DNA from: Nereocystis luetkeana
Taxonomy: Eukaryota > Sar > Phaeophyceae > Laminariales > Laminariaceae
Reading direction: 5' to 3'
NCBI GenBank assembly: GCA_031213475.1
Contig: JARUPZ010000019.1
Location: forward strand, 4,939,896 to 5,003,895
DNA length: 64,000 nt
The first letter of the stretch is position 1. Every line of letters starts with the position of its first letter. The notes under the pieces are model-generated. The model was not told the origin of the DNA. It worked only from the letters and a program-made list of their open reading frames with translations, and ran no database searches. Position numbers and translations under genes: made by a program. Below are positions 1,387 through 60,800 of this stretch, piece after piece.

Positions 1387-4300
1387 GTTTACGAGAAAAA
1401 CTCAAAACCGATTCTAAAGACCTATGCCAATGGAAACGCGAAGTTGAAAAGTTTTTTTTCAAATATATGGCTTTAAAAAAACAGCCGAAAATTTTCTCGT
1501 ACCGCCGCTGTGGGGAAAAAAGAGAAAAATGTTTGATTTTTTCTTTTTTTTCCCCCAACGGCTGCAGGCGGCGCAATTTGTGTTTTTCTGGTCGCAAATT
1601 GTCAACACGGTGATCGAAACCAGCTCGTGCGACGATCGACCCTCGATCTCGACATAGACTCAGCCCACGGCCAACCCACTCGGTATCTGGCAAGCCCAAC
1701 GAGTATAGATGACGGCCTCGAAGATATCAGGCGGATCCATGGTCTAGGGGGCGAGAGCTTGCCGGCGGCGTCGTACGGTATCCTCCCAAACCTGAAAAAA
1801 AGACTATTTTTTGCCATTCGAGACGGATGGAGACGTTGTGTCTTCTGTTTTGTGCAAACCAGCGGCCAAATGTTTTTTTATCACACGCCTGGTCAGCTCC
1901 CGCCACATGACACCGGCCATGGTGTGAAGACGATGACCCTAGGGTGGGTCGGAGCCCCTTACGAGCGCACTCCGTTCAGAATTCGTGACGCAATCGTTGG
2001 TTTTGTTGATCGATGTATGTCGAGGACTCGGAATCTCGCCGCTTCGAACCAAAGATCGGCCTGAGTATTTCTCAAGCCGATGTTGGCCCAACATCGGCCC
2101 CAGATTTGCTTTTTTTGGGCTTTTCCAAAAGTTAGGAACTTTTTTTTTTTTTTAGGTGGCCCATAGGAAGCGTGTTCTGAAAATTTTTGGCGGGTATCTT
2201 TGAAATTCAAACTTTTTATTGCAACTTCGCTGTACCATTGGCATAGGTCTAAAACCAACTTAAACGAGCTCTCCCTGAGGAAAACATCTCGATAATTTAA
2301 TGCCTTGAAAAACGTTGCCCAGGATAGGATCGGAGCCTGCAGACCAGGCAAGTGCGCCCCATCGATGCAACAGCAATGGGCCGAACGAATCCGTACCCCC
2401 GACATTTACCGGTGTCTGCTGCTGCACCGCCTCGAGCGAGAATCACGTCGTTTTTCTCTAACAATCCACGGCTGCCACTCCTGCTCTGTGCTACAAGCCC
2501 CGACTACCGGTTCCGACAAAGCACCTGAGGCCCCGACAGCAGCTATACATAGGCCGAGGCCATAGTAATCAGAACCCACGCTGGGCCCAAAAAGTAGGTA
2601 CGCCCTTGTGCCCTTATGTTTACACACCATATATATTTGGTGCTGATTACGTTTTACTCTCACACGTTTCCACTGGAGCAGTCGGTAACCGTTCTCTGGC
2701 ATCGCTGCAAGGCGAGCCAAATGGCAGCCATCCTCAGGTTTCAACGTGGGCTTACCATCATCGCCACTGCGTCAGAATGGTAAGGCAAACCGACTCCCCT
2801 CTCTTTACGTCTCAAGCCCGTTTTGGCAGCAGAACCTTGAGAAATCGTGACGTAAAGTGCAAGTGTAAAAACGTAAAAACGGCTGCTCGTATTAAATAGT
2901 AGTATTGTTAATAGTGTAGAGAGTCAAAGTGTTCGCTCTGAGAACGCATCTTCGGTCGTCGTATCACACAGATCAAAGGAATTCGTTCCTGAAAATCGTG
3001 GCTTTCATTCCCCCTTTCCCTACATCGAGGGACACTCCCATTTGCAAAAAAACGCGGGCTTCTGCCCTCCCGGGTAATACCCGTTGCAGCACCACCACCA
3101 CCACCACCAACACAAGGCACGTACCTGCCCTAAGCGTTGTCGGCGTCCGTGCGAGGACAGAAGGCACTGATGCTGCTGCTGTGCCGTTGCGACATGATCA
3201 TCCTTCTCGCTGCTGTTGATAGGTGATCGCGATTGATATCGCCCAGTACCTGGTGCCGCAAGAAAGAAGGTATCGCTTTCTCTCAAGAGAAACGCTAGTA
3301 GCCACAGGATCCTCCAAATGCTGGTCAGGGAAGCTCTGAGGGGTAGAAAGACGGCCTTCATCTCCTGGGCGGGAGATATATATGTGCACCAGCAGACTAG
3401 CAGTACGTTGTCGTCTCAACGTAGCATCAGCAGCGCTCAGCGGCAGTAGTTCTGGCAAATAATAACAAGGGTTTCCAATGGTTCTGTTTGCATGCAAAGG
3501 TTCTTTTTTTTTACCCTTCTCAGCTTCGGAAGCATGATCGTGATGACACGACATGACGCAACATTTCTTCTAGCGTGGCACCTCTGCTGGTGCCTTCTAC
3601 TAGGCTCCATAGCTCCGCAGCGTGCGAGGCCGCCCAGGCAACGCCATCCGGGTGCTCAGGCAAAGGCCAGGATCACGCACCGTGCTGTGACTGCTGCTGC
3701 TCCTGGTCAAGGTATCTCGGCGCTCATCCCCACGCGGGCCGTCGGGGTCTGGGCAGGTGCGTCAGCTGATGTCACCAGGCTGGATGTCACCACCCGAACC
3801 GGCACACATTTACGTACGTAAGATAGTGACCGATCGCTGTGTACCTGGAGATTTTCGTAGTTCAATGTTTTCGCAGTTCGAGGATATGTATCGCTACGTA
3901 CATCGCTACTGCTGGCATGGTCTGCGCGTAAGTTACACACCCGAAGCGAGTTGCTGCGCTCCAGCCCTCGCAGGGCAGTCGGACACTTGAGCGGGCGGCC
4001 GTGGGTGGAGGTGTATACCACGGGCAGCGGTGAAACAACCAGCAATTTCTTGTTGTCAGCTATAATAATTTCCGGTGACATGTGAACGTGCCAATTTTTT
4101 GCTCAAATTGCCCGATATTTCATGTGTTTTTAGGTACACGTAGGCAACGACGTGAGGGCACCGGTATTGCGAGAATAGTTACCTGGTACACGTATAGGGT
4201 GCCACAAATCAGCAGCAGTTAAGGTGCGAGTGGCGCACTTAGTGAGGCAGTGGGCAACGAACTGCGACGTGTACCTGTTATGTAACTGCTGCATGCTGCT

Positions 4301-4655
4301 GTAAGTACACTGCTGAATGTTTTGCTCGAAGCCGCAGAGCTAGCATGCTGCTGTACCAGGTACCTGATGTACCATTTGCAGAGGCCCTCTACTTTCCTTC
4401 CCTTCCCATTTACCGGTACCAGTTACCATTTACCCACCGTTTTTCTGCTGCTGCGTGCTGACTCAGGCGCACTTGCTTCCAGCGGTGACTGCAATTAGTG
4501 CTGCGAACCTGCGATGAGCGGAGATCCACTGGATGCGGTGGGGCAAGGGCACGCTTGGTACGGGTACAACCTGGTAAGCGAAGCGGCGGATGGATGTCGT
4601 TCTTTATTCTATACCAGGTATTATTGTGTAAAAATCCTACCACGACTGCTGTACA

Positions 4656-4848: not shown

Positions 4849-6794
4849 CGTCGATTATCTCGGGGTCGGGATGAATAGCAGGCACCTCGAGCGTTGCTTT
4901 TATACCAGGCACACCGGACGGCGGTGGAGAAAGTAAGAACTCGGATCTCTTCGTCTATGTATCCCCTAACGACGTATCTTGGATTTAATAATTTCAAACT
5001 TCCAGGTGTACGAGGTGGTATGTACCTGGTATTTTACTTTAATATTATTAATAATTTGGCCAGGTGCGGTCTCGTTTACCTACAGCAGTACGTATTTATA
5101 CGTTGTGTGGTTGGCTTACACCATCGGATCAGGGTTAGGATTGCTCTGATTGGCTTTTGCGGTTACATAGGGTTATGATATCTGGTTATTTCACACCCAT
5201 GGTAGTTTTGTTTTGTGTTTTTAATATTCTCAGGCGAATTGGTAAAATGATGCTCACCACACTCCCACGTTCAGATTTCGTGTCGTGTGTCACTTTAACC
5301 CGTAGCTCCCGTTGCAACATCAGGGCAGACTGTTACCACTGGCACTTGGGCACGTTGACCCGACCTGACCCCCGAGAGGGGCAGGTGCGGTCGAGATAGC
5401 CACCCGGGAGAATCATCTCCTTCAGGTGGTGTGGGACTCGCGCGACACCCACTAACAAAAACCTACAGTAGGCTATGAGGCCTTCCCGCCGGACTTGGTC
5501 CAAATACGGTTCACCCTTGTAGGGGCGTTGGTGTTAATAGTTATATTCTCTTACACCGCCACCGCCTCAGTGCGTGCCAACACTTTTCTCGAATAAGTGG
5601 TGGGTAACCCTCTTCTTAGAAGCCGTTCACGGGGGAGCGAGTAGCAGCAGTCATCCCGTGGGTGCCAACAACCTTCTTCTTACATAACAAGCCGTCGACG
5701 AGGGAGCGCGCGGCAGCATTCAGGCCGTGGGCGTGTGGGAATAGTGTACACCAGGGTTATACTCGTAGTGTCGCTTCGATATATGTTCAAAATATGAAAT
5801 ATCGATCGTTTCCATACATCGCCGTGTCGAACGTTGGTTTGCCCTCCACCCCCTCTCGGGCATCCCACGTATTTTGGCCCTCCATCCCGTGGCGTCCCCG
5901 TGTTTGTTCATTTTTTCCCGCAGATATTGAACCAAAGCTTCCACTTCGTATCGATTTGTGGAATGTGTTTCGTATCGTTATCGAACTCGATTCTCGTTCG
6001 ATATGTAGCACCACTATGTGGGAGAGTGCCGTGCGTTGTGTTTCATATTTCGAGTAGGCTGGTGGGAGTGAAACCGTCCCTGATAGTACCTCAGCAGCCC
6101 GGGCTGTTTCGGGTGGTCGCTGCTGGTATTCCCCACTGTTTTCTCCTTGTTTTTCTTCTTATTTTCGACGTTTTTCCCGCTACACCCTGGAAGCCCCCCT
6201 GGTTAAGTACATAACAATAGCAGAAAAAGAGCGTGATGGAGTATCATACCTTTTAATGTATTAGCGGTACGTACATGCACGATACAGCACCAGCGATGCA
6301 GCGAGTATTTGCCATGCGTAGCGCATACACGAGTGGAAACATAGGGGTGCTACGAGTACCCGCCGGATACCCGCCACGAACAGGTACCCGCCAAACTCTG
6401 GAGGTCGGACTCGCAGTCTTGACCGGGTAACCCTGTTTTTCAGGTGACCGGAACCGGATCCACCGGCTATACCCGGGTAGCCGGGTACCCGGTTAACATA
6501 TCTTCCCGTCTACAGTCCTGTACAGTCCTCAAGCGGGCCTGACGAGTGGAAGGTAGGGCGCACTTTGATGAGATACATAGCGCTCAGAGAAACACAGGCA
6601 TCAAGCGGTATCAGGCATTGCATGCTAACCCAAGATCCCTCGTTTTTGTTTGAAGGAGCGTTGCTACTTGAAGTTCTTCCTCGTCGGGGTGTCGGCCCTA
6701 AACATTAAGCGTTGTTGATGTTCGTGATTTGTTTCAAAGCAGTAACTCATCGCCAAAATAGTGTCCGTCCGTGGTCGCTGGATAGGCCCCAAGT

Positions 6795-6988: not shown

Positions 6989-7060
6989 CCTACCCACGCT
7001 GCAAGGCGCTCTCAGCAATTGGTTCCTTTTTTATTTTTATTTTTGCAAATAAAGTCAAAT

Positions 7061-7141: not shown

Positions 7142-7559
7142 GGCTATTCTGGAGCGGAAAGACACCCAATGAAAACACAAACGAATCGCAAATAAATGCA
7201 GCTACTGTAAGCTTCTGCTGCTGTCAACTTGGCAATGAAACAATGACACGCGTATATCGTACCTGGTGTGTATCGTACCTGTTGTGCAGTTGTACACGTA
7301 CGTATAGATAGTGTACATCGAAAATGCCAAGCCACTAAACTGCGCTATCAAACAATTGCTCGTGTATACTGCTGTATCTGGTACGAGTTTATAAGATTTA
7401 AAAACAACAGCTGTGACATCGAGGATTTTGGTCAAAACTCCTCTTTGCAAGCTGTGTGTGATACTTCGATCGCGCGTACTACGGATTACCTGGTATACTA
7501 GTATCAGGTACTGCCGCAGTACACGTATAGATAGTGTAAACGAAACAAAGTGTACGGCG

Positions 7560-9548: not shown

Positions 9549-10412
9549 GCCTTTCTCCGAAAAGGGGCTGCCCCGAGAGCGATTTGGAGTCTTACTCGCG
9601 TTAATAGCGTAGAGCAGGCTGCCTCACAGGCGAATAAAGTGCCCACTAATAACGCCGTTAATCGGGAACTCCCACAACTAGGCGATACACACGTTGAGGC
9701 AAGCTTGGAACGCCTATCTGGCCTGGGATCGGTCTGACTTTGGTACTTGCCTTACCTAGTTTAAGGCAGTTATAACGCATGTCGAGGCTGTCAAGACACT
9801 TGAAACAGTTAGGCACGCCTTAAAACGCGCCTTGGTGTTTCGCGTGCAGCGAGCCATACCAATTTGCCTTTACGCCGCCTGCGGCGAGCATTCAAGGCAA
9901 GGGTCTTCATCGACGCCGATTCCGGCTCCGGCAACCTCAAATTCGCCTATGTGTGGAATTGGGGTTAGGGTAACGTTTAGGGTATGGCGGGGTCGGGTCG
10001 GCCAATTGAACAGTGCTATCTCCAACCATGTTCTCGAACCCAAATCCCTTGAGAGCTGCACCCACCTTTAGGAGCCGAGCTACTTGGGATGAGATTCGAA
10101 TGGTGTTTCAGCGGTTTCAGGGCTAGCTAATCTAAGCCGAGTGATATGCAAGGTAGTACACAGCTCTCATAGAGCATGTACCTTACCGCTGATGTTGCAG
10201 TTCTTGAACATTAACAGGCTGCTCGAGGCTGTACGAGGGTGTTCGATCGTCGCGTGTACGTGGTATGTATGTACTACCAGGTACAGTAGTAGGTAGCCCC
10301 CTTTTGAAGGGACCCCGCGATAAGGGAAAATGGTGTATGTAAGGGACGTCAAAATTTCTGCCCACCATTTTTTCGCACTATTGACGACTTGTGCTACTGT
10401 AGAGGGGTCACG

Positions 10413-18162: not shown

Positions 18163-19767
18163 GGAGTGACGCCTCCCACGTCCGCAGGCTTGGAGTCGTG
18201 CGTATAGCTGCGACGGGGCGGATAAAGGTCGGGAGTTGGGAGAAAAGCGCGGTATTTTGAATATTGCCATACCGCAGTTTTCCCTTCCGTGGTTTAGGCT
18301 CACTGTAGTCTCTGCAATTGCCGGAAACCACCGACGAGCGTGTTATACATTCGTGTCTATTTCCATTGAGATGGATGGTACATGTCGCATGCGCTGCAGA
18401 CGTCTGACTTATATTATTAGCTGCCGTGGGTTGATTTCGACGTACCACCCGGCCCCCACCCGCCTCCCCTCCTGAAGCGCTTGCCCGCGTCCGCACCCCG
18501 CTCGACCCGCTTGCTTAGTAGGAGCTTTTTCGGGCTGCGTCTTGCGCTTGGCTTGACGGTTGCTCCGGCTGCCGCCTCCTGGAAGGTAGAGTACCCCTCT
18601 TGGCGGCCGAGTTTTGAATTTATCACGGATTGCTTGCGCGGTACGGCGTGGAAAGCGGCAGACGAAACCCTGTTCGAAACACACCTCAACTGAAATCGCT
18701 TACCGTAGCCTCGTTGTCGCCTCCTTGTCTTGGAAGTATGGGGGATGGCTCTCCGGATGGCTCCCGTTTTATTTTACTTTGTTGCTGGCGTTGCCCTAGT
18801 TGCTTTTGGGGCTAAGCATCCGCGGCGCCCGTGTTTTTCCTCATACGGGTTCAGCGTGCTTCCCGCGCGGTGTCGCGCATCAGCGCTTAGTATTGGTCAT
18901 CCGTGTATGGAGAGGATTTGAGGTGGTGTCAAACGTTTATGCCTTCGATATTTTAATTGATTGAACAACGATCGACCGTACGCATTGTAATAGTGGGCCG
19001 TACAGCATGCTTGCCAAATCGCGCACGAGTAGGCAGCACGGGCAGGCGGGGGTAGGGGGTACGTTTTCCGTTGGAGGCGAGAAATAGTGGAAGAGCGGTG
19101 TTAGGATATGGACTCTGGTTCGCGATTCCTTCTTCGCGCATGCCTCCTCCTACTACTACTACTACTACTACTCCTTGTGGCGCACTCACTGCTCGCCGCG
19201 TGATTGGACGACGTATGTTGGCCTCACCATGCTTTGCGAGAAATACGCCCATTCGCAGGCAAGTAGAAGAAGCGCAAGCCCTGCATTAAACGGATATTTA
19301 TCGCAGATTCTCCCGCGGCATGAAAACAGCGGCTTTGCAGGTTGTTGCTCCACAGCAGTTTTAGAGAGAGTCGGCGATTCTCTACGCAGTATAACTCGTT
19401 ACTGCGTCGTCGTTAGTTCGCAGATGCGAGAAGGCGGGAGGAGGGGTGAATACTGCACGTGGAACTCTGAATTTACGAAATTATAGCTTTAGAGCTATAC
19501 ATAGGTCCAGCTCTTCAGAGCTACCTGGTATGACGCAGCGGCATGAGCAGCTGGTTTAGTAGTGGAGTCGACAGCTCTTGGTGGTAGTCGATGTCTGTTT
19601 CTGTTCATCATGGGGACGAGTGTCGTGTTGTGTGTGTGTGTGTGTTTTTTTTTTCTCCTGGTGTGTGAGCACAGCGGTTGGCCCCTCACGTTCTGTGCGG
19701 CAGCTTCGTACTCGAAGTAGTTGCCGCCTGCACGATCCGTACGGGTGGTGCTTGCCGCCGTGTGGTT

Positions 19768-20172: not shown

Positions 20173-20747
20173 TCGTACGGCATGGGCGCAAACATGATCC
20201 TAACCGTGTTGCTGGGCGCTCACGCTGCTCGTGGACGGTCCGTAACGCCAGAGTTATTATTGGGTTGGTCGCTATCAAGGGCTCCCAAAAGGGATCAGTA
20301 AGTCTAATGAAACACGCGTTTGGCTTTTTTTCTACAGTAGGCGTAATGCACCACGTGCTTGGCTATTAGTAGGTACCTGGTATATTAATAGTTGCAAACA
20401 CGTGTTGTTTGTGTGTGTTATGAGTACATACTGTAGTATACCCGTACTGTAGCTGGGATCCGTCGCCTCGATGATGGCAAAAGTGATCATTTATAGCTTC
20501 GTGTACCCCTGCACACGGTTGGTCCCGACTTCGAACCCGATTTGATGATATTTTACGTGTTGCGTTTTTGTTATTCTGAGCACTACATAGTAGCATACCA
20601 GAACGACGCGTTAAAATGCCGAGCGGAGGGCGCATAGCTCCTTTGTTTTAGACGTTAGCACGACGTGGGTGAGCACAATGGTAAATAGACGTGAACCGAC
20701 CAGCGAATGGAAGGGAAAAATTACGTTTGGTGCTTGCTCAGCTTGCG

Positions 20748-22491: not shown

Positions 22492-22680
22492 CCAAGTGGA
22501 TCCGCTATGCGCTTGCGACGATCGCCTCGGACGGCCGATATGCGCTGATGCTGGATGTTTTGCTATTATTGCGTTGCTTGGCCAGCATCATGTGGATGTA
22601 CCTGGATATGCGCTTGTTTTGCTATTATTGCATCGCTTGGCCAGCATCATCAGGCCATGATGTACCTGGTACAAGGGCCT
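22250..22680 (+). repeat. CAG-rich minisatellite block
   Basis: It contains three diverged units around 'gaccaagtgg.tccgct' and 'gcgacgatcgcc', separated by CAG runs. The longest CAG run (about 16 units) is at 22,441-22,490. Then follow two copies of a ~67-bp unit with 'gttttgctattattgc.tcgcttggccagcatcat' features at about 22,555 and 22,617. Poly-Gln, Ala or Leu ORFs on both strands come only from the repeats. Confidence 0.65.
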
Positions 22681-22854
22681 GTATTTTATGCAATTGTTGA
22701 AGGAGGACGAAGAATGAAACCTTCATGCGAAGTTTTCGTTATTCACTCTGCTGTGTGCCTACGCCCTGCGCACCCAACGAAGGCCGATACGCTTAACTTC
22801 GTACCAGGTACGCCTGAAGGGTAGCATGATGGTTGAGAAGATACGCACGCAGAT

Positions 22855-23265: not shown

Positions 23266-23610
23266 CAGGTTGTGGTTCGGGTAGCATAGCCAGGTTCTCC
23301 TTACTACAAATAGTCCGCCTGGTACCTTGCTACCCTGTCTGCCGCCTCCGTCCTGCGTTCGTCAACATGTCGAATGTCCGTTACGAACCACGACGAATAT
23401 CCCTTATCCCCGCCCAGTACGATCACGAGTAATACCGATAGCCAGCAGACGTCAGTCTCAGCCAAACCCCGCCTGCTGGGGCGCCGTTTGTCGCCGGTCC
23501 GGACTGATCTCTCTCGTCACTCTCACCAACTCCAACTGCGAGCTCACAAAAAAAAAACTGAACTGAGAACAGCGCTCGAATGCACTTCATCGAGGGCAAT
23601 AACAATGACT

Positions 23611-23717
23611 ATTACGGGGGGGCATAGTTAACAGGACCAAATATTGTTAGTAAAAATTGTTAAACATAGAGGTTTTTATGTATACCATAGGTCCTGTTAA
23701 CTATGGCCCCCCGTAAT
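23611..23717. mobile_element. MITE family A, copy 1
   Basis: A near-perfect palindrome of about 107 bp. It begins ATTACGGGGGGCATAGTTAA and ends TTAACTATGGCCCCCCGTAAT, with an AT-rich centre that contains 'ggaccaaatattgttag'. The outermost bases are flanked by TA, as in TA-targeting elements. Eight copies or fragments are in this window. Confidence 0.8.
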
Positions 23718-39111: not shown

Positions 39112-39217
39112 ATTACGGGGGACCATAGTTAATAGGACCAAATATTGTTAGTAAAAATGGTTAAATATATAGGTTTTTATGTATACCATAGGTCCTATTA
39201 ACTATGGTCCACCGTAA
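39112..39217. mobile_element. MITE family A, copy 3
   Basis: TATTACGGGGGACCATAGTT at the left and AACTATGGTCCACCGTAATA at the right, with centre 'aaatattgttag'. This copy is close to the family consensus and is intact across its full length. Confidence 0.8.
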
Positions 39218-41086
39218 TAGTAGACGCATGGCTCGGTCACAAGCAAAACGATTAGCCAGTGGCCAAAACTCGAACCGTACGTATATAGTGTTAATAGCAG
39301 CAGTCAGGTCCGTATTGTATGTATAGTAGCAGCAGTCATCCGTACAGCAAACAGCAGCACCAGGTAGGTATATGTGATTCGGTTCTGGTTCTGTCGTGTT
39401 TGTGGCGTGAGCATCTATGCACAGAACTACTGCTGTACCTCGTACGAGTGCAGCAGCAGTAGTGCCGGGATGTACCATACACGAATCGTTTCAATTTGCT
39501 CCTTGTACCTGGTACCTCGTACCAGGTACCTGGTACGTATTTGTACCGGTAAGACAAGTATGTACAGACAGCCTTTCAGACAAACAGGGCGTACCGGTAC
39601 GACGGTGCGGCCAGTGTGAGACGAAATCGGTACAGGGTACAGGTACACATACCCGGACGTAAATATCCTCCGTGCCCGTGCCCGGGGGTACCAGTGTTTG
39701 ACAGCATGAGTAACAGAGTACAAGAGCACAAATCACAACAGAGCACAGGGCAGGAGTACTCGTAGTGGCTGCTGTTCCGTTTCCTGGATTCCTGGATGTA
39801 CAGCAGTACCTGCTGTTGGGTGCTGAAAATAATAACCTCATCCTGACAGAATTCATCATTATACTCTGCACGTACATAGTTGGCAATGAATTGTCGCGAA
39901 CCGTGTTTGGGAGGAGCCGTTTGTTGTACGTACGTATATCTCCGCCCCCATCAACCTCGGTCATGGCCGCTGCTGTTCGCTCCTTGCCGTCTCTACGAGC
40001 ACTACTTCGAGCACCGGTCGGCTGGTCGCCGCCGTGCTATTATTATTCATAGTAGACCACCGTCTAAACGCGACGCACATCTCACTCTCACGCATCTCCA
40101 ACGTCTCCTACCAACGCATCCCAAGGAAGGATCGGTACATGGCTCCGGCGGGACTACTTCTTTCTGTGTCGTGTCCTACTTATTAATAGTATTATACCAC
40201 GTCTTTACTGTGCGACGTACGCGATTATACGAAAAAATCGTTCTGAGCAGCGCAAGCCCCAAGCAGAAGTGGGGTCCGCACTGATATCGGCGTTCTATCT
40301 AGATGATTGCGCGAAGTCGGGGCTCTTTGCGCACTACCGGACGGTCCTGGCGGGTTTTCTGTCACTCGTCCGTTAGCAAGTGCACAGCACGTAAATATAG
40401 GCGGTGTGGTTTTGACGGTTCTGCTTTTCTGGGGCGCGCTGGTGCAGCTGCTGCATCGACTTGCTTAGCTCGATACAGCGAATAATCGAGACCCTGGCTC
40501 ACCGACACGAAGCGGAAGCCCTTCGGTTCATCCTCAGAGCTGGGTCTTCGTGCAGTTCTACCCGCCTGGCTACCGTTCACCGTTCGCCTGCTTCGTGCTC
40601 TATCAGCAGTCGCACAAACTTGTTTACGCTGCCTCTCAAGAAATCCCCGATTTCCTGCACAAGAAAGCCTTTAAATATATATAAAACCCCTTTCGACACC
40701 AAAAGCAAAAGCACCTCGAAAGGCACAACCGCAGCAGCAGCAGCAGCAGCAGCGCAATAGAAAAGGAAGGTGAGATATAGGATATGCCGTCGATTCATCT
40801 GAGTTTTATGGTTTTGCCCCGATGGATCCATCCGCGCGAAGGAGCCATCGGCGTTACCCACAGGGTCAAAAACCTTGGCTTCCCTGCTGTGCGGCGGTGA
40901 TCAATCATCCTATTGGCGCGCGGGCGTGGGGCAGCCATTATCTTGGGGTTGGCTGCGCACCGGCTGTCGTGCAAAGGCAGTGCTACGAAGACCCGTGTAT
41001 TTCTGTCGGCATATGTTCCCGCAAGCACTCGGTCGTTGAGTGGCGGCAATTGAAGAAATGAAAGAAAAGCAACGCAAAACTCTGTT

Positions 41087-41590
41087 TTTGGATTGCTATC
41101 ATAAAGTCAATGTTAATACAATACCAGGTACGTACCAGGTAGTATTTTGTGTTTTCTCGCAAGCAAACCCGATGTGGTGTGTGGTGTGGTGGTGTGTGCT
41201 TCCCTCTCCGAGAACTGCTCCGACACCCCCCATGTTTTCATATTGCTTCATGGGGAGGGGGACAGCAGGGGGAGTGGATACGGGCGGAAAACACTTAATG
41301 GTGAAGGCAAAATATATTATATTGGCACATCCAGGGGCTTCAAGACCAAGACCCCCCCCCACCCCCCGATGTTGTTGTTTTGGATTGCTATCATAAAATC
41401 AATATTTATAGTATTTTGTGTTTTCTCTCTCCGGGAACTGCTCCGACTCCCCCCATGTTTAAGATTGCTTCATGGGGAGGGGAGGGAGACAGCAGGGGAG
41501 TGGATACGGGCGGAAAAAACTTAATGGTGAAGGCAAAATATATTATATTGGCATATCCAGGGGCATCAAGACCCCCCCCCTCTTGCTGTT
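41087..41590 (+). repeat. Tandem duplication, two ~220-290-bp units
   Basis: Both units start 'ttggattgctatcataaa' and share 'tattttgtgttttctc', 'gaactgctccgac', 'ttgcttcatggggagggg' and 'tggatacgggcggaaaa', then 'ggcaaaatatattatattgg', ending at a C run. Unit 1 contains two TACCAGGTA motifs that unit 2 lacks. Confidence 0.75.
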
Positions 41591-44220: not shown

Positions 44221-45231
44221 TATGTTTTTGCTGCTAACCCCCGTGAGAATGGTTATTACGCAAGTCACCTCCGCATCTTGAAGTTGAAAGACGGATCCAT
44301 CTGCTTCGGAAGCCGTGCGAGTACAGTCTCGTAATTGACATTTATTTGGCGTCTCGGCGGAGGTCTCGTGCCAGCGTAGTTTTCGTACGACACGCACCTG
44401 TACGCTATGCTGCTGCTGCTTGCTGCTGCTGCTGAGTTTACCGCACCAACGTAATCGCCGGCGCTTCGCACTGTCGATTAGCTCGATCGACTGCTGCTCA
44501 ACTAACTGTTTTGTGGATATCTGCACATGAAGTATACAGTACGGACACCGAGCGTCTCGTACGTGAATAGAAAAGTGCTGCTTGCTGCTGTACGAACGAG
44601 TTATGTGTTGTGTTGGATAGCGGATGGCAATGGTCGTTTTTCTTGTGTTTCGAGCGTTTTATTTCATCTCACTCAAAGTTGTTTTTTATATTGCACTCCT
44701 TGGCAGTACTGTCGCACTAACAGCCTCGAGTTGCATACCGGTACGCGCTCAGCCATAACGGGCATGCGCGGGGAGCCGCGGGCCGGCGCCAGCCCGCCGC
44801 GACGAAGCCCCCCCTTGTATATAATACAGTATTCGTCGACGAAACGTTTTCACCCGGCCTAGCATATTGCGACCCCTCCCCCCCCTCCTTGGTCGTGAAA
44901 AATAAAGCCTCCGAACGGGTGTGAGTGTTTTCTTTGCAACGTTGGTCTGCGCCGCATAAAAGACAGGAAGGAAGGAACTGTTCGCTTATTTGCGATGCTG
45001 ATGGGTATGATGTATACCAGGTATGCAACTTTTCATTGTTATTTTTTATCCTCCGGCGGATTGGTAAAAATAAAGCTTGAGCTCACCACACTGCGTGCCA
45101 GTGTGTCTCTCATGCTTGATACGATCGCATAGAATATTCTCCCTGCCGCCCCTCCGGTTTCCGTACGCGGCCCTCCGTACCCCGCCACTCGAAAATGGCG
45201 GGGACGACAACGACAACGACGGCCGTGGAAC

Positions 45232-45370: not shown

Positions 45371-45825
45371 TTTACCAAAACCTGACTTAATACCGAAACG
45401 AAACCAAACAAACGAGCATACAAATAAAATTGCGAGACCCCTCGGAACTTGATTTTTTTTTGTAATATACCTGGGAGTATGGAGCCGACCAAAAAAACGG
45501 TGATATTTTGCGATCTACCACGTAAACAACTACATTACAGTAGGGAGAGCATGCAGCAGCAGTGCAAGTATTTTCACCATGCTGCGTGGGTGTCGTACGG
45601 CTCATTTACGTTGCAGTTCGGACACATCCCCTATCCCCTACCCCAGGAACCCGGGCTGCTTAGTGTGGCAAATGTTGTAGTCAAAATGTGTACCAGGTAT
45701 AATATATACGTACATACATACATGAATATTGTGGAGTATTTTGCTTATTTCCCTCCGACGTTGCAAAGGGATTAATGGACGCCCCCCGCCCCGCCCGTCC
45801 CGCCTCCTTAAATATGCGTTTGTAG

Positions 45826-48800
45826 TATCGGGACAGACGCCGGAGGTCCCGGTGGTGTCGAAGAAGTCGGGCCACCTGTTCGAGAAGCGGCTTGTCGTCA
45901 AGTTCATCGAAACCGAGGGAACGGTGAGGAGGCGCAGCGGTCTATATGTATCAATATTACAATATTACGGGGGACCATATTCAATAGGACCTACCGTACA
46001 CAAAAACTATATATTTCGCTTTTTTATTGACAATATTTGGTCCTACTTATTTACTATATTCCCCCGTAATAGTAGTACTTGGACGGGACCACACGTATGG
46101 CAGAAATCGTGGTGTGGTATTGATACTTATATCACTATTTGCTCTCTTTATTGTTTTTGGTGTTGTGTTCGGAGGGTGAGCGGGGGGGGGGGGGGGGGGG
46201 GGGGAGCAGGTGTGATACAGGGGTGGTTGTTATGCGTGAATTCCAGGGGGGGGAAAGTAGTAGAAATAGTGAGGCGACTACTAATTTCGAGAGAATATGT
46301 TAATAATATCCAGAGCCCAATACGGTGTGTACACATGCGGGGGATATCTGTTTTTTGGGTCCAGCGTGGGTTCCGGTTGCTTTCGTCATGAGCGTTCAAG
46401 AGCAGCACGTTCGCAACAACCAGTCAGAGTTACGAGTATGGGTGAGAGATTTGTCTTGTGCTGGTGTGATGCATGAGGGTCCGGGGTGCGCTGTCCCATG
46501 GCCGGGGGTCGCGTCCGAGGTTGTTGCCGTGTCACTGCTGCTCTATGATTGACAGGAGTTTCTCTGCCCGTCTAAGTCTGCCTGTCTCTACCACAGCAGT
46601 CGCAGGCCGACGGATTTTACGACACAAAACGGAGGGCGTTTCCTGTCCTCCCCCCCCCCCCCCCCCCCGCTCCGCCCCGCCCCGCCCCACCCCGCCCGTC
46701 GGCTGAGGGAGGGAGGTTGAGAGAGAGGGGCAATGGGCGGGCGCGCTGGTCGGAATGCGTGGGAAGGCTAACGGCTGCGGGGGAGTAACTCGCGTGATCG
46801 TCAGATCAGCGTTTGATTGATGTGTTGCTACAAGACTAGACCACAGCAACAGTAGTGGTGGAGCAGGGTAAGCAGGAAACGTATACCTGTTATTAGTCGA
46901 GGGGGGGGGGGGCGGGGGCTATCGCGAACATCGCGTCCTGCCCACGGTGTGCAATGCACTATTAATAGTGTTTTCTCTTGTGGTGTCGTTTATTTGGAGA
47001 ATTTAGACCCCGGGGCGTTCCGCTTTTTTTTTTCTAGCCATCTCAAACAAACCAAGAGCAGCAGGAGCCACACCGGAAAGGCGATCGCCCTCTTGTATGC
47101 GAAACCGCCGCGTGATTATGATGGAACGTGCGCCAGTACTGGGTGAGAGGCAAGGCAAGGCGAGGCGAGGTACGGCAGTCTTCTGCTACCGCTCGCCCCG
47201 CGAAGAGGATGTCCGGCCGCCTTGCTTGCTCAACACAACGTCCTACGAGCAACATAGGAGGCATTTCACCATGGGGGGATCCTTCCCCCCCCCCCCCCCT
47301 CCCCTCCTCTCGCTGTCACCCCCATGCTGTTGTCGTTCGTCTGCCTGTCTGTCTATCCCGACGAGCAAAGACGCCCGCCATGGATGCATTAGTGCATGCT
47401 TGCTGCCCCTGCGAGCCCCTCTGATCTCTATCCGCCGTCTATTTCCGCTGCTATATGTGTACGGCAGTGTCCCGCCACGGGAGAGGAGCTGACAGTAGAT
47501 GACTTGCTGGAGCTCCGATCGGACAAGGCGGTCAAGCCCCGCCCTGTCGAGGCCGCCTCCATCCCCGGCCTCTTGGCTATAATGCAGGTCAGCGCCGAAG
47601 GCGTTATTGTCGAGGGGTGGGAGGTGGTAGGGGTTGGCGGTAGTAGGATACGCTCTCGAAAGAAAGGAGTTTTGTACTCTGCGCGCGGTGCGTAGGAGTA
47701 GGAGAGTATGTTGTATTCTTTGTTTTGTTTTCCCAAGGGAGGGTAGGAGGGGGGCAAGGGTGGGCGGGCGGGGGACGGGCGGGGGGGGGCATTCCTGCCC
47801 CTCCCGAAAGAAAAATAACATGAGGCTACTGCTGCTGTACGATCCCAACCTACACAGTAAGTACACCGCGCAGTTTACGCAGTGCTTGCTGTGTGTGCCC
47901 GCCAAAACAGAAAACATTGAAGAAACTATCGCCTCGTTTCTGTGTTGCACGGCGATATCTTGTTGTCGCGCCCTCTGGCCAAGCTCATTAATAAACTTAG
48001 CTCCTCCTGTACGAGTAAACACGGAGTTCTTATGCTCCCGTCTGTGCCGCCGTCCGCCCGTCTTTGGCCTCGAGCAGAACGAGTGGGACGACCTGATGCT
48101 CGAGACGCACACCCTCAAGCAGCACCTGGACCAGACGAGGCAGGAGCTGAGCCAAGCCCTGTACCAGGTGAGATCGCATGCACCTCTCCAGTGGGGCTCT
48201 GGTGGCCCGGGGGGGGGGGCGGGGGGCTCGGGACGGCGCTGGCGAGCATCGGCTCGAACCTAAGCTATGTATGTAGATATGTAGATCTACTGTACTATCT
48301 TGTAGGGCACCGACGCTTTGTTCATTTGACACTATCGGCGTTCCCAGGCAGGGAGAGAATGTTGCAAGCGGGTCTCAGGCCTTGTCCGACGTATGTTAGG
48401 TGCGCGCTCGTGGGCGTTAGCGGGATCGTTTCGTGTTGCCGTGCGCCACGTTGACGTGTTTCTCGTTGTTGGGTCGTCGTTCAAGATTGTTGTTCGGTCC
48501 ACGTTTATTTGTCCCGCGTGCTCCGTCCCACGCGTTCGTTCCATGTTACCGTTTCCGTGACATCGATTATCCTGACAGTTTCCAGTGATAGTGTCGTGTT
48601 CGCACGTATTTCGTTCATTCAGTAAATGCTACTGTTGTATCAAGTTTTCACACTTGCTTGTACCTCGGACGTCATTGGTAGATAAGCGATAGGTATGTAC
48701 CATGTTTCCGCCGCCAGGGACCAGCAGAAGGCGTTTTGCACGCCGGAGCTCATTACGCCCGACCGCAACAACGCCCCTGCTTTCGCGCGCGCGGTTTTTT

Positions 48801-51800: not shown

Positions 51801-54800
51801 GCCTTTTTACAGGTACGAAACGAACAATTATGTGCATTACAAATGGAACACGCAGTTGATGAGATCCTCCGCGAGTCAGAATGACCAGGTACTGCAGCCT
51901 AAAAGCGCTGCCCCTAACATCATACTTGTACGGCAGTAGGGGTCCTTCCATAAGGCGGTCTTGAGTGAGGCGATATGCCGACACAAGGCGCGACTGGGGA
52001 ATTGCGCTAAAAAAACCTGGAATGAATAAGGCGGCTTCCCTCAATATGGCGGTCATGTTGCTCTGGCACACCACCACCTCTCCTGGAGACCCCTACTGTT
52101 CCTGGTTACATGGCGCGCGTCTTTTGTGCTTCTGTTCGTGCCGGGAAAAATGAAAACCTCACCTTTCTTCTTTTTTTGTTGTCTCTGTTGTGTATTTTTT
52201 GTGTTTCCTCCCTTTTTTTGTTAATGAAATGCGGTACGACAGAAAGAAGAGGGCCATGCCCGAGGACCTGTCCTCCGCGGAGGCGGTGTCGGGCTGGGAG
52301 GAGACGTCCAGCAACACCCTCCACAAGACCAGCCCCAAGGGGATCACGTGCCTCGACCTGCACCCCTCCAAGCCGAACCTGGTGCGCCCGCTGTTTTCTG
52401 TTTTTGGCGTGCGCGGCGGTACCTTTGCCGGTTAGCAGTTTATTCAGCCGCAAAGTGCGGTGGCGGTCAAGTATGCTATTAATCTATGAATAGGCCGCGG
52501 TGTGACACCCTGACTGACCGCGCCTAACCGCCCCACACTAAAGCTACCATGTTAAGACCAGAGGAGGAAAGCAGGCCTTGACGGCCTGACGCGCCCAACA
52601 GACGGATTTCCTAGCATGTTTGGTGGCGGTGGCTGTAGCGTTGTTCTCCCACGCGTATACTCGTATCATAGTGCCACCACCACCTCGTTCTGCCCCCCCA
52701 CCGCCACCACCACCACCACCACCACCACAGGTCCTCACCGGGGGCGTGGACAAGACGGCGATCGTGTTCGACCGCGACTCACAGGCGCAGGTGGCGACGC
52801 TCTCCGGGCACACCAAGCGCGTCACGGACGCGTGCTTCCACCCCACCAAGGAGCTTCTGCTTACCTCCTCGGCGGACAAGACAGCACGCGTGTGGCAGGC
52901 GGTGGAGGGCGGTGGCGAGGGCGGAGGTGGAGGAGGCTACAAGGCGGCGCACGTGCTGGATGACCACGAGGGGGAGGTGGTCGGGGCTACGGTGCACGCG
53001 ACGGGAGACTTCGTCGCCACGGCTTCTAAGGACAAGAGCTGGGCTTTTTACGACATCAACCGGTGTGTGGGTTTTGTGGGTTTAGGGTATTTCGGGTGTG
53101 TTTGTGGTGGATGTGACGTGGATGGTGTGGCGTGGATGTTGGGTGTGGTGTTGGGTGTGGGTGTTGGGTGTGTTTTGGGGTGTTAGCTGTATGCGTGATG
53201 AGCGGTGTTGGTGTGCTTTGTGTGCGGTGTTTGTTGCTGTGTGGTTGTTGGGTGTTTATGTTTGTGTGTTGCACATGTGTTGTCTGTGTGTTGGCTATGG
53301 GTTCGTGTTTTGTGCTTTGTGTGGTGCACTTTGTGTAAAATGTGGTGTGTTGTTTGTTGTGGGTGTTGTCGGTTTGCGTTGTTGGGTGTTGGATGTGTGT
53401 TGAGGTTTTGCGTTGTTTGCTGTGTTTCATGCTCTGGTTTGTTCTGCGTGTATTGCGTTGGGTGTCTTGCGTTGTGTGCATGATACGGTTTTTGTGTGTT
53501 GGGCGTGTATTTTTGTTTGCAATGGTTGTTGAGTGTGCGTTGCGTATCGACCTGTACATATATGGTACAAGGAACACTCTCACCGTACTCTCCATGTATA
53601 TACTCGTAGAGTGTTGCGTTCGTGTGCCATGTCCCGTCACACGATACCACCCACCCTCTCTCTCTCGCGACACCCCTCCAACGCCCAGCCAAGCCTGGCA
53701 CCTGCATTCCTCTCACGTTGATGTATCACCATCATCCTTCTACAATACAATATTCTCTCAACATCTTCTCAAACATTTATCGCTCGCCACCTATGATACC
53801 ACCTTGTCCCACCACTCCCCCTCTGTCTCTCACTGGCCGTGCGGTCTCTCGCTCCTCCTCGACTTGTCCGAACCGGGCAGGGGGAGGTTGTTGAGGCACG
53901 TCAAGAACGAGGAATACGCGGAAGGCTACAAGTGTGTCCGCTTCCACCCCGACGGCCTCATCCTCGGCACCGGCACCGGGGACGCCCTCGTTCGCATCTG
54001 GGACATGAAACAAGCGGTACGGTCCCGTCGGTTGGTCGGGAGCCTCGCTGTGTTTGGTTTTGTGTATGCCCGCTGTTTCAGCCCTTCTTTGTCCCCCCAG
54101 TACTACTAGTAGAAAAAAATGTCGCACACTCATTTCGAGCGGTTTGGCCCTAAAACATGGTTCGCAGCGCCAAAGAGCTTCAACTATTGATGAACGTATA
54201 CTACGAAGTACCAAGTAGTATACCAGGTACCGGGGTATTATTCGCGCTACTGGGTACTTTTTCTCTTTCTTTGTGCTGTTGTATGCTGATTCATGCCTGG
54301 TGTACTACTGCTCTTACACGAAGTATACCTGATTTATTGTTATTACAGGTATGGCAACGATTTTTCGCCAGAATGCGGTACGATATACTGGGAATGTTCT
54401 GCGCCACTTGCCGGTATAGGGCAAAAATCCGCGACACATAGCACCTTGTATAGGCAGCGCTCACTGGCCAAAGGCACCGCGGCACCCGATGTGCCGTGAT
54501 CTGGCCACAAATCCTACGGATCTACCGAATACTCCTATGTAGCTACTCGGGCTGATGTTCACCATGTTACAGCCTATGGTCCCTATGGTTCACCGTTTTA
54601 TGGCCTGGTACGGTTCACCTCGTACCGTTTTATGGCGAAGAAGAGGCCTGCCAATAGAGAGCCATCAGACCCGTGCATCGCCAGCCCCCGCCAACTTAAA
54701 AAGTAAACAAGACGACAGCGTGTATCATGTTGTACATCCATACGGAGCGGCAGCATACTTCGTACAACCAACGGCAGAGCGATGTCGAGGCGAGTGTACA

Positions 54801-57800
54801 CCTCAATGCGTCGGTGCGGCTTTGTTGCCGGGGCCCTAAATATATAGACCGCGGGTCCAAGGTAGTCGGCGCGTGTGGCGAGCTCGACCCTTTGAGGGCA
54901 AACAAGCTGCAGTCCCGTAGTCGGGACAAACCAGTCATATTGTAAGTATTACCGGGGGCCATAGTAAATAGGTCCTGCGGTACACACAAAAGCCCATATA
55001 TTTCCTATTTTTTACAAACAGTAAAATTGGCGATGACAGCAGAGGAAATGATCTGGTACAAATCATGGAACTAGGTGTGCCATCAGATTTGTCTTGAATT
55101 TGTATTGTGGAGTGGTCGCCTACGATCAGTCGTCATTTCGTTCCCAAAACCTCGTGAGCAGAGGTGGGCACGACATATATATTGAGAGGTAGAAGAGATC
55201 GAGATGCCTCGGACCACGCGGTCGACCCCGACCCCACCGCCTTCGGAGGACGCGACGGCGCCGGTCCCGGCGGCGCCCGCGGTGCGTTTGCCCAACCCCA
55301 ACCCCGATCGGGCGGCGGCTACGTTGGTGGACTCGGCGACCATGCTGAAAGATCTCCCTTGTTTCATCCCGGGTGCCTTGGGGGCTGGTATGGTCCTGGA
55401 CTTCGAGCGTGTTTTCTTGGCGACGGGCGGCAGCTGTGCCTCCTCTTCGCGCTTCCAATTCTCGTGTGCCTTAGGCTCGGTGGCAATGCGGTTTTCCCCA
55501 GGTGCAGACACCTGGCCCCAGGTGCAGGAAGCGGCGGAGAAGAGGGCGATGTCCTCGCGAGGAGGGGCGTCCCGCGCGTACCGGGAGGTGGAGGCGACGC
55601 GCCTGATGGTGCGCCACATTTTGGACCTGCTGCAGTTCCATGGTTTGCCCTTACAGTCCGAACATTGCGTCCTTCTCCACGGGGCCTCCGAGGTGGGGGA
55701 CACGACGGGTAGGCCCAGGGAGGGGTCGGGAGCTGCAGGACGGGGGCGCTCGCCGCCCAAATGGCAGAGGTGGAGGTCACCCCAGCTGGGACGACCTCAG
55801 CCGGAGCGAAGCCTGGTGGGGCGAGCGCTGCAACTGGATCGACCCCAGCCGAAGCAGCGGCAGGTGGGGAAAATGCTGCGGATACCTCGGGGGGGCGGGG
55901 CCCGGCAGGAGCGAGCACTGATGGGGCGGGTGTCTTGGATGCGGCGGAGTCGAGGCAGCGGGACGACCAGACCCAGGCTGACAAAGGACCTGCTCGGGCT
56001 GATCACAGAGACACACTCCCCTGAGGTACGCACTGTTGTACGAGTTCGGCTCTGCGGTACAAGAATCGTGTTCTTCTAACAGGGAACGTAGGCAAGTAAA
56101 TGAAACACACAATGATACCGCAGAGCCGAAGTCGTACAACGGTGCGTACCTCAGGGGAGTGTGTCTCTGTGATCAGCCCGAGCAGGTCCTTGTCACCCTG
56201 GGTCTGGTCGTCAGGCAGCCTCGACTCCGCCGCGTCCAAGACACCCGCCCCACCAGTGCTCGCTCCTGCCGGGCCCCGGCCCCCGAGGTATCCGCAGCAC
56301 TTATGTTGGCACGGGCTTGCTAACGACCCCACCCCCCCCCCGGGGGGGCATCGCAAGGCGGCGCGCTCACACGCCTCCGCACGCCCACGGGGTGTCGTGA
56401 TCCGTTCGGTTATTTACCTGTACACAGAGCGCCCGCGGGAGACCCGCCCAGGGCGCTAGACCCGTCCAGGGCGCTGCCGTCCGTGGAGGGCTCGCGACGA
56501 CCCGGGACTTGGTGCGGTTTTTACGTTTTGCTCCGCATGTCACGAAGAGAATCTTGCGCAATTTGATTTCTGTTGGAAATGTGGCGTGCAGCCGGCTCGG
56601 GCTCTACCGGCCCCGCGGTACCCAAAGAGGTCGCCGGTCGTTGTGTATGTCCAGAAGCTCCAGGCATGGCGACGAAAAGTATTGGCAGCGATGGACGGGC
56701 GCCCCGGGCAAGGACGGAAAAACAGGGTAGCCGATGAGTTCGACGCGTTCGTCCTCGTCATTTCGGCTGGATCCCGTGGCTGGACGACAGCAACGCCGGA
56801 TGGCGTCTTCGATTTTCTCTGATACCTTGACACTCAGGGAAAAGGCACCAAGTTAGTGCATGCGACGTCTTGCCCAGACGTAGGCCGGGCGGGCGACGAC
56901 GCGTGCCTGGCGGGGTCTTCATGCGCAAGACGCTACACGGCTGAGTCCTTCCGAAATGGGTTTATCTCTATAAGCTTAAAATAGCCATGAAAGAACACGG
57001 AAAAGGGGATGAGTGGGACCCGGCCCGCCGGGTGGGCAACCCTTGCGCGAGCCCATTGGTAGATTCGTATCTCACGTTTTTGTCCGAGGAGCAGAAGCAG
57101 GTCGGGGTACCGGTAAATCAGGCAGCTCCAATGTTGGGAGCATACACTCATGGACCTGCTGAGCGACATGAGGTCGCGGGCACAAGTAGCTAGTTCGTTG
57201 GCGGAGCGTATCTCCCTGACGAGAGATATTGCCCTGTATGCACTGCTGTGGCCTTTTTCTCGATGCGCAGGGGACGACGACCTCTCCTTTACCCTGGGGT
57301 CACAAATCCCGAGGCTCCCAGAGTCTAGAGGCTTAATCTTTAATACCAGGTATTCAGTTTGGTAAGACGCTTCGTGTTTCTAGTGAGGCGATAGTGGTGT
57401 TGGCAGACCGGGTCTGCCCGGAGGCGTGCGCAAGCCGGGCGGTTACGGCATACATATCCGCCGCGCAGCGGATTGGGTGGGATTTAACCCTCGGGCATCT
57501 TTTCCCCGTGGTTACGACGGAAGGGGGGCGGGGTTCTCGGCCCCTCTCCGCAGCCCGTATGACCGCTTCCCTGCAGGCACGTCTGCGAGAGGCGGGCCTG
57601 CCGAGCCATTTCACGATGCACTCCTTTCGAGCGGGTGGCTCCCTCACCCAATCCCTGGCCGGATCGGTGGTGGGCGATATCATGAAAATCGGTGGTTGGA
57701 AGACGGAGGCAATAGCAAAATACTACATCGGCGGTACTTCTAGTGGCCGAGTCCAGGGTGGCAAGAGAAAACGCGGCCAGCACTACGCGGACGCTAGCCG

Positions 57801-60800
57801 GCTTCCTCTGTCGCCCGAGTTCGAGAAAGATTTCGCAGCATGTGCGAGACAGGGTTGGGGCAAGCGTAAATAAGTTTGGGTGAGACAACTACGTATCCGA
57901 CCAGTGGTATTTTAAGGGAAAACGCAACAAGATACTATCCAACGACGCAACGAAGTATGGACGAGACCACAGGTCGACGCAGGAGGCCTGATCCAAAAAT
58001 CCAATACTTACATCAAATGATTCAGGACATCGAGTCAGAATACTACAGTATTTGGTCCCATAGTATATAGGACCTACGGTGCACACAAAAAACATATAGA
58101 ACTACATACTTAGATCACAACCCCTGAGCGTGCTCGGTTGGTGCATCCCTGGCCTCTCAGAGCTCCCACTTCAAAACCGCCTCCTTTCATTACTTGCCGG
58201 ACCTTTCCACCAGTTCTTTGTTTTCTCGGTCATTTCTTCCTTTTTTCTTCTTTCGTTTCGTGTGCGTGCGTGTTCTCCGAGCACGGCATCGCGGGAGGAC
58301 CCGGCACCGTCGCGGGTGCCAGCGGGTGCTGGCGGGTAGAGGGGGGGGTGCAAGAAGCGCGGTCGCCGCTTTCGTGCCTAGGCGTCGCGTGTGCCTCGAG
58401 ACACGAGGGATGCATGAACGGGCTTTGTCTGGCTTCGATTTATGATTGTTGATAGAGTATGTACGAGTTTATAAAGGTCGTTCGGGAGGGCAAGATAATA
58501 TTCAAGCGGTGCTTATTTTTGCGACCACGCTAAAGTTGAAAGAGGGAGGTGTGCAGTTTGAACAAGAAGCTCTTCTGTGCCATTTGTTTCTTTTCTTTTC
58601 GACCGGGTGTAAGGTGTTCCAATCAGGCAGAAAAATATTTCACGAGAGGGGGCGGGGATTTTTTTTCCTTCCCGAGTTTTCGGTTTCATTTTCATTGTTT
58701 TTGCTGCCGTGCCGTGCTGTGCTTTGGTTTTCTTCGTACATACAGTACAGACATAGAGCATATCGAAAGAAGAAAATAAGTACAGACAGTAGTACCCTAC
58801 CTGGGGTGTATGTACGTACGTACGACATCCGCGACGCGAAGCGTATATGTGGCATCCAAGCTGACGTCGGAGCTGTTTTTTCCTGAAGCATGGCGGCGGG
58901 ACTCTTGGCATTATCAAGTCGCCGGTTTCCAACTACGATCCTTGAAAACACTAAACTCAATCGTGGACCTCTGTTCGCTTCGCATAATTTGATGTACTTT
59001 TTTCCTTCCTGAGCGAGCGTAGCGGGCGGCGAAGGCCGCCCGCGGAGCGAAGCGCCTTGTATTTCCCTATGTTTACCATTAATATTAATATTAAAAACAA
59101 TATTTTGTGCCATAGTAAACACAAAAAACATATATTTGCCTATTTTACGAACAATATTTGGTCCTATTTACTATGGTCCCGCGTAATAGCACATCCCCGA
59201 AACGGGACTGCGCTTGCGTTATGGGGACGAATTACGTACACTTAAGAGTCAGATATATATTTTTTCGTTTTGAACAGTGTAGTGCCGTAGTATTTTACCG
59301 GTGAAAAAGAAAATTGAGCTTCATTTTTACCAACCCGCCGGAGGTTATAAATCGTAGACCGGTAGATTTCGTTTCTGGGAAGAAGAAAAAAACGCGAAAA
59401 GGCGACGGCGTATTTTTCGCGCGCTTGCCTCCTCGTCCCTCCCTCCCTCCCTCCCTCTCTCCCGCACCCGAGGGAGGACGTACGCATGTACTCATGTGCA
59501 AGTACGCAACAGCGTTAATTCACGTGTGTAGCAGTGTGATTTGCTGACGTACTGCATGCGCATGCACAGGGGGGACGTACACATAAGACGGATATAATTA
59601 TAATAGCTGTTGCGCTGGCGCAACATTTTGGTCAAAATAGCCGTTTTCCGCGACAGCCGCGGAGGGGGGGGCTGGTGGCGCGCAGCGCAATACGCGATTT
59701 TGGGCGCGCAGCTTTTTGGGCCGCGGGCCCAAAAATTTGCTGCGGCCTTTTTTGCTCGCCGACAAAAAAAAGTGAAACCCCGTTTTTCAAATTCGCCTTT
59801 GGCGGGAAAAAATAATGAGCCTTTTAAATTCGCCGCAGACGATGTTTTTTTTAGAGGCCCTCTTCTGTAGGTTCTGATCTCGATACACGCCTTTTCGAGG
59901 TTCGGGGGGCGTTTAAACGCACTTTGTTACTCGGTTTTCGGGCATAGATTCGCACGTATATCGTATTTGTTTGCGCAACACGCCTTGCGTCGCCTGTTGC
60001 GCTGCGCACAACAGACACCGGACCACTAATTATATCCCTGGTACAAATGTACTCAACGCAACAGTATTAATTCGCGTATGTGGCGGTGTGATTTGCATAC
60101 GTACTGCATGCGCATGCACGCATACGTTTGCTTGCGTGTCGAGCGTGTTCCCGACTGCCCGCGGTTGGTCCGGTTGCTACGTGGACTTTTAGCTGCGAGG
60201 GGGGCCGAATGGGGAGCCAAAGGGCTCCGACCTGCTCCAGATAACCCGACCACCGTGGTTTGTTTGATTGATCACCTCCTCCGACAGCAGCAGCAGTGTT
60301 CTGTTGGGTTGTAATACCTGGTACCTCGTGTGTTGTTGCTCCGCGAGACGTTGTATGCTGCTGACCGGATGTGACTGGCGCATCCGGGAGTGCATCCTGG
60401 CCGGGTGTGACTGGCGCATCGCATCGGTCGACATTCTGTACGCCATGAACGTTGACAAGGTGGCGGGGAACATATCTCTCACCCCAACCCCTCCCAAAAA
60501 ATAAATACATGAAAACGACCCGACCCCAAATCAACCCAAACCAGACCGAACCGAACCGAACCGAAAAAAAAACGGAAAAATGAGGTGCTACCCCTATTGT
60601 ATATACCAATATAGTTTTAGGGACATAGTGATTGTCCCTAAATCCCAGGAACGATTGCAGTCAGTGTATGTATGTATAACCAGGTATACAGTACTCGTAG
60701 GGGTAAGTAGCACCTAATATTTCTGATTTTGTTCAGAGTTCTCACTCAAAAGCTATACCTGGTATGCATTTTTCCCCACCCGAACCACTTGACTGGCCTC

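Follow-up and report, generated by a model that had tools for sequence, protein, structure and literature searches.

The question raised by this stretch of the Nereocystis luetkeana genome is how one nine-base word, TACCWGGTA (W being A or T), came to be scattered through it, and by what process. The stretch, referred to here as the window, comprises 64,000 nucleotides at positions 4,939,896–5,003,895 of contig JARUPZ010000019.1, within an assembly of 465,085,209 bases. Every TACCWGGTA represents 7 bp inserted at a TA dinucleotide, one TA having become TA-CC(A/T)GG-TA. From these insertions we infer, as their probable source, the excision of a TA-targeting cut-and-paste transposon of Tc1/mariner–pogo type, which would have left the units behind as scars.

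Abundance of TACCWGGTA and its insertion at TA

The window holds 32 exact copies of the word, 16 reading TACCAGGTA and 16 reading TACCTGGTA, where 0.35 are expected from a first-order and 0.51 from a second-order Markov model, and once simple repeats are excluded it is the top-ranked 9-mer. It is also the top non-simple 9-mer in a genome sample made up of twenty 10-kb stretches at set positions on 19 contigs (L021–L040; 197,500 readable bases), with 81 copies and none of the reversed word, the control. Over the whole assembly the counts are 182,395 for TACCWGGTA and 1,744 for the reversed word, an excess of about 105-fold, and tandem pairs with a period of 7 bp occur 15,917 times against 2 for the control. 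A preliminary description of the window, which had listed 31 copies, given a chance expectation of about 0.5, pointed to nesting at period 7 and proposed a genome-wide count as a check, is borne out by these figures: all 31 copies are exact, the nesting is real, the genome-wide count is far from chance expectation, and the span from 11.4 to 18.2 kb described as empty falls within an interval without copies from 10,275 to 19,522. One further copy, TACCAGGTA at 279..287 (+ strand), had been overlooked.

The arrival of the word as an insertion can be followed in a palindromic miniature inverted-repeat transposable element (MITE) of about 110 bp, seven copies of which lie in the window. The copy at 34156..34296 carries three insertions and exceeds the fuller other members by 21 bp, of which 14 bp are due to two nested units at 34225..34233 (−) and 34232..34240 (+), neither present in any of the six other window members, and 7 bp to a unit at 34265..34273 (+), absent from the five others that reach the site. 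The copies at 23608..23721, 39111..39222, 45961..46077 and 61519..61628 and a partial copy at 54947..55031 are without insertion, and in a second partial copy (59112..59189) the first site is empty and the second is not reached. Thirteen alignments from window and sample cover both sites, and the length difference is 21 in ten of them, 24 in one and 14 in two; the two last (L039 and L027) carry an exact or one-mismatch motif at the first site, which has thus been struck in, or inherited by, several members of the family.

Similar differences emerged from an unbiased indel census, an all-against-all comparison of the window, a related contig described below (L010) and the stretches L021–L045. 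Gaps of 7 bp were found at 47 places, ten of which have the form TA-X-TA, and in eight of these ten the inserted sequence is CCAGG. Six of the eight places and two window sites were then re-tested in spanning alignments: the gap is 7 in 13 of 16 at L039 7057, in 11 of 12 at L042 3010, in all 17 at window 34,266 and in the single alignment at L042 4551, while at window 34,226 the adjoining nested copy obscures the count. The sites at L039 7057, L042 3010 and window 34,226 and 34,266 belong to the same MITE family, L042 3010 being at a different site within it. Both at the MITE sites and in the census a single TA is present in the empty site and a TA on either side of the scar in the filled one.

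A pair of direct repeats at 41060–41600 provides a further comparison. The first repeat is longer by 23 bp at a TA, the additional sequence including the copies at 41122..41130 (+) and 41133..41141 (+), and two CCAGG scars make up 14 bp of this excess, the other 9 bp being unaccounted for. Taken over independent repeats, the length difference between homologues with and without the insertion is mostly 7 bp, or 14 or 21 where several copies are present, and lies at TA, which confirms the micro-insertions originally proposed by the test that the preliminary description had set for them. Some gaps have other lengths, namely an 8-bp insertion (the CCAGGG variant, see below) and the 23 bp at 41 kb.

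The copy at 57344..57352 (+) lies within a decayed tyrosine-recombinase gene of a transposable element (56413..57846, + strand), delimited by tblastn with a relative, P0121, and shifts its open reading frame by 7 bp. In Pfam, the ALOG domain of P0121 scores above the cut-off and its Phage_integrase match below it. Among 84 protein homologues, 52 recognisably span the site and none of the 52 has the insertion; in all of them one residue corresponds to 3 + 7 nucleotides of the window, and the alignment is gap-free over ten columns in 50 of them, the other two lacking only the first column. A genome search scored 42 matches including the window itself, and 20 of the other 41 were compared at this site. 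The motif is missing from every one of the 20; in 18 the sequence around the site is shorter by exactly 7 nt, and L052 and L068 have 1 and 3 further nucleotides. The window copy has in addition its own 5-nt insertion at 57,244 and 1-nt insertion at 57,276.

At the level of DNA, a clean 7-nt gap is also seen in L010 (JALZUV010000315.1, 3,946 bp), which carries a relative of the recombinase with 66% identity in the best segment. This contig is filed under a Rickettsiales metagenome-assembled genome, probably by mis-binning; it has two copies of the motif, and the entire record contains 23, compared with 8 of the control. It was found in a genome-contig search with query A2, and the corresponding search with P0203 gave no confirmed match.

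Target sites, scar variants and a second unit

The sequences around the insertions were analysed for the 113 copies of window and sample, which together form a set of about 264 kb that was also used for the variant and parent counts. A purine precedes the TA in 98 of the 113 and a pyrimidine follows it in 94; position −6 is A in 61 copies and position +6 is T in 62. As nested copies could mimic the signal at −6 and −7, the analysis was repeated with both flanks pooled on the 66 copies that are isolated even from neighbours with two mismatches: RTAY is found in 48 of the 66, against 35.9% of 14,081 TA sites, with A at −6 in 52% and A or T at −7 in 79%. The target preference around TA is therefore palindromic, with the consensus RTAY, A at −6 and A or T at −7. 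A palindromic preference around TA, there in the form of a plain ATATATAT repeat, has been reported for the ZB and Sleeping Beauty transposons (PMC7913693).

The inserted sequence is self-complementary save for its centre, which is A or T in 113 copies and C or G in 13. Beside the dominant product there are minority variants, CCAGGG (9 against 0.7 expected), CCGG (16 against 4.4) and CCAG (22 against 8.6), which could be products of faulty joining. In an alignment of the L025 repeat CCAGGG appears as an 8-bp insertion at TA, adjoining TTAA and CCTGG insertions, so that three scars lie in one repeat. Forms with one mismatch number 143, against 56.6 expected, beside the 113 exact copies, an excess that suggests copies of mixed age.

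The scars are not spread evenly. Nested copies with period 7 lie at 37753..37761 (−) and 37760..37768 (−), and at 39506..39514 (−, in a 7-bp tandem array), 39520..39528 (+) and 39527..39535 (−). Genome-wide, random targeting would give some 3,700 tandem pairs by rough arithmetic (from 5,072 RTAY sites in the 264-kb sample), so the 15,917 counted point to a preference of the insertion for its own scars, local re-insertion or some slippage. Copies within 60 bp of each other form 25 pairs, where 5.3 are expected if equal numbers are distributed over RTAY sites; at 61–200 bp there are 9 against 9.0 expected, and at 201–600 bp 36 against 22.

A second unit built in the same way is TA-TTAA-TA, found by the census at seven places with a 6-bp gap, among them L025 3785, L026 4569, L027 7836, L029 7097, L032 6283 and L035 3924. 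Six TTAA places were re-tested, and the gap is 6 in 4 of 6, 8 of 8, 1 of 1, 6 of 6, 3 of 4 and 2 of 2 spanning alignments. The full unit TATTAATA was counted 52 times in the sample (197,500 bases) and 13 times in the window, and the flanks of 60 TTAA copies follow the pattern TAC-TA-GTA (T 57%, A 58%, C 50%), which differs from that of CCAGG. Further TA-X-TA forms are in excess in sample and window, namely TA-CAGCAG-TA (25 against 0.8 expected) and TA-CGAG-TA (40 against 9.3), which are possibly further scar types, and TA-CAG-TA (103 against 40). With these classes in excess, CCAGG is the largest of several TA-X-TA classes.

Probable excision footprints and the alternatives

The reading that we favour, and hold to be probable, is that the TACCWGGTA units are footprints. 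The parent element would have ends starting 5'-CCAGG and would insert at TA, duplicating it; on excision the non-transferred strand would be cut 5 nt inside each end, and the two 3' overhangs, each CCAGG, would pair in antiparallel orientation, leaving at the centre an A:A mismatch that repair would turn into A:T or T:A. Since such a scar retains two TA targets, later rounds could nest at period 7. Surviving copies of the parent would be very few relative to the scars, or the parent would be extinct in this genome. This model accounts for the TA flanks, the near-palindrome with its free A/T centre, the target pattern, the nesting and the minor joining products. The footprint idea put forward in the preliminary description is plausible, as target pattern, centre and minority variants agree with it, and falls short in that no parent was found and that 5 nt lie beyond 2–4 bp.

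Several results weigh against this reading, among them those of the search for the parent. The full transposons with TACCAGG...CCTGGTA termini that had been envisaged were not found in what was searched: no convincing pair of terminal inverted repeats with CCAGG ends (TACCAGG/CCTGGTA) was seen among those listed for the roughly 264 kb of window and sample, and a whole-genome pattern for CCAGG-ended elements of 197–257 bp, which does not cover T as the sixth base and would overlook an element starting CCAGGT, gave 131 forward and 137 reverse matches against 383 for the control. Instances of TACCAGG that do not run on into TA number 49 in the 264-kb set, where 34.3 would be expected, and in 9 of these GT comes next, like in CCAGGG-TA; being barely above expectation, these leave surviving ends far rarer than scars. 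PF13358 has no match in the genome, and four of the five PF03184 loci that were read, out of 28 matches in the genome, show no inverted ends within the 5 kb fetched. The insertion sites themselves are not free of exceptions. At three re-tested places the 7-bp gap is seen in none of one alignment (L021 5267), in one of three (L025 3809, with gaps of 7, 8 and 3) and in one of two (L028 9582), and in the recombinase gene a TA stands precisely at the point of insertion in just one of the 20 empty paralogues (L058). The majority have AATTTTC where the window would have AATATTC, so that the window copy must have gained its TA by a T-to-A substitution before or during the event. The stricter Tc1-like target AYRTAYRT is found in only 4 of the 66 isolated copies, with a background of 1.7%; the preference is palindromic around TA without being the plain repeat mentioned above. 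Finally, a scar of 5 nt is longer than the 2–4 bp of Tc1/mariner footprints (PMC7913693).

Two finds from the parent search deserve description. A possible parent MITE, the one family followed up from the whole-genome pattern and represented by matches of 213–253 bp starting TACCAGGGA, was rejected: in five copies compared with 250-bp flanks homology runs through both ends, which makes the family part of a larger repeat. The fifth PF03184 locus holds a TA-flanked element (L043 1952–4563) with a match to the DDE_1 transposase and inverted repeats starting CAGTGGGGGG, with CAGTGGGG at its ends, which we take to be pogo-like. The scar expected from such ends is TA-CAG-TA, one of the classes in excess, and the presence of both the element and its scar supports the footprint model. 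The left TA of this element adjoins a CCAGG.

The main alternative to footprints is a micro-insertion that never had a parent, in which the 5-nt CCAGG would be added or integrated directly at TA, with the TA duplicated, by an enzyme such as a repair polymerase or a transposase that has been domesticated or has degenerated, no longer element ever having been there. It would explain why 182,395 copies stand beside no CCAGG-ended element in the portion searched, and the single dominant product, the clustering within 60 bp and the presence in several repeats of TTAA, a similarly built unit whose flanks follow another pattern, are in its favour. In its general form it would be a genome-wide process that places at least two fixed palindromic units, CCWGG and TTAA, at TA, duplicates that TA, and prefers different targets for the two; their sum may be some 300,000 scars (182,395 CCWGG by count, and about 120,000 TTAA projected from the 52 copies in 197,500 bases, a figure that includes background); we can put this forward only tentatively. 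A near-palindrome with a central A/T is, on the other hand, the outcome of annealed transposon overhangs, the CCAGGG, CCGG and CCAG variants resemble joining products, and the parent search covered a small part of the genome only. We also know of no enzyme that inserts CCAGG in this manner, and on balance we regard a parentless origin, in either form, as unlikely.

A transposon from outside the Tc1/mariner–pogo group, which also duplicates TA and otherwise behaves as in the footprint model, with CCAGG ends and a 5-nt stagger, is quite improbable. Such a stagger is unusual for Tc1/mariner (PMC7913693), PF13358 is without a match, and the Ectocarpus genome has 51 DNA-transposon families of unknown superfamily (PMC12477816); the palindromic preference around TA is nevertheless one that ZB and Sleeping Beauty also show.

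A functional motif such as a protein-binding site, kept or spread by selection, could have the form of a sharp near-palindromic 9-mer with symmetric flanks, but we strongly disfavour it: in homologous repeats the word is seen to arrive as a discrete unit within defunct transposable elements, is absent from homologous copies where conservation would place it, and is present in 182,395 copies and 15,917 tandem pairs. Tandem-repeat slippage or chance is rejected, for although 7-bp arrays exist and tandem pairs exceed the rough random-insertion estimate, 66 of the 113 copies are isolated and not arranged head to tail as such an origin would have them, the two orientations stand at 16:16 in the window, and the excess over the control is about 105-fold.

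The surrounding window, significance and known systems

The window is eukaryotic and contains a PRP19 gene with long introns on the + strand, at about 45.8–54.1 kb, with the decayed recombinase gene downstream of its exons. Among the best 120 of 523 protein matches, the one of highest identity is a 201-residue fragment filed under the brown alga Hapterophycus canaliculatus, with 128 of 155 aligned columns identical, which points to a brown alga or a near relative as the host. That no copy lies in a called exon, as first described, can be maintained for the PRP19 exon pieces examined, which fall short of a full annotation; the copy at 54221..54229 (+) is downstream of PRP19 WD40 exon sequence, as judged from the translation. 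The remaining copies, all exact matches, are on the + strand at 4354..4362, 4612..4620, 10275..10283, 22802..22810, 37734..37742, 38204..38212, 45015..45023 and 45691..45699, and on the − strand at 4180..4188, 5023..5031, 7487..7495, 19522..19530, 20374..20382, 22663..22671, 37302..37310, 38291..38299, 38321..38329, 60315..60323 and 60756..60764.

Other repeats of the window are a pair of inverted repeats of 189 bp, 96% identical and about 2.3 kb apart (4660–6984), with related inverted repeats in L031, and a self-palindrome at 55871–56302 (436 columns, 88% identical). Scans of viral contigs gave no match to the MITE end and no confirmed match to the recombinase; a tandem 16-mer was seen in nine viral contigs (L001–L009).

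If the units are footprints, they constitute a fossil record of some 180,000 excisions by one type of transposon, with a stagger longer than the range found for its superfamily, and their density would allow target preference, re-insertion nearby, the fidelity of repair and the timing of events to be measured without the element. A cut-and-paste element could then alter a genome chiefly through its scars, here by adding about 1.3 Mb in units of 7 bp (182,395 × 7), shifting the frame of struck genes and forming tandem arrays. If no parent exists, they represent an unknown way of inserting DNA. Either reading accounts for the most frequent non-simple 9-mer of the sampled sequence. A survey of Ectocarpus transposons lists 17 Mariner-Tc1 families with 11,912 copies, mostly non-autonomous, and makes no mention of such scars in its available portion (PMC12477816). 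Among the papers listed in our literature search, which was not exhaustive, there was no title or abstract opening on this motif or on such 7-bp insertions, nor a publication announcing a mass of TA-flanked scars of this kind.

Among known systems, Minos leaves a footprint of 4 nt plus TA, the longer Tc1/mariner type, which is one nucleotide shorter than the unit described here and of other sequence, and the Mos1 mariner has one end that starts CCAGG and leaves footprints of 3 nt. Excision footprints of pogo/Passer-type elements span 0–4 bp (PMC9976928), and the pogo-like element at L043 has ends that predict TA-CAG-TA and not TA-CCAGG-TA. In rice, with all superfamilies pooled, excisions resulted mostly in deletions and fillers, only 8 of 94 being perfect (PMC4423477); scars were studied there, as here, by way of homologous sites, but they are untidy where ours have one dominant product, which again tells against footprints. 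Because reported Tc1/mariner footprints are of 2–4 bp and rice excisions are mostly untidy, the mechanism proposed here is not filed as a canonical Tc1/mariner footprint, although it works like one. The Sleeping Beauty type of footprint is C(A/T)GTA (PMC3878927). Sleeping Beauty and Frog Prince differ from the present case in that 3 nt plus TA are left by a known element, in place of 5 nt plus TA and no element found, and agree with it in the plan of the scar, which is flanked by TA, near-palindromic and free to carry either A or T at its centre.

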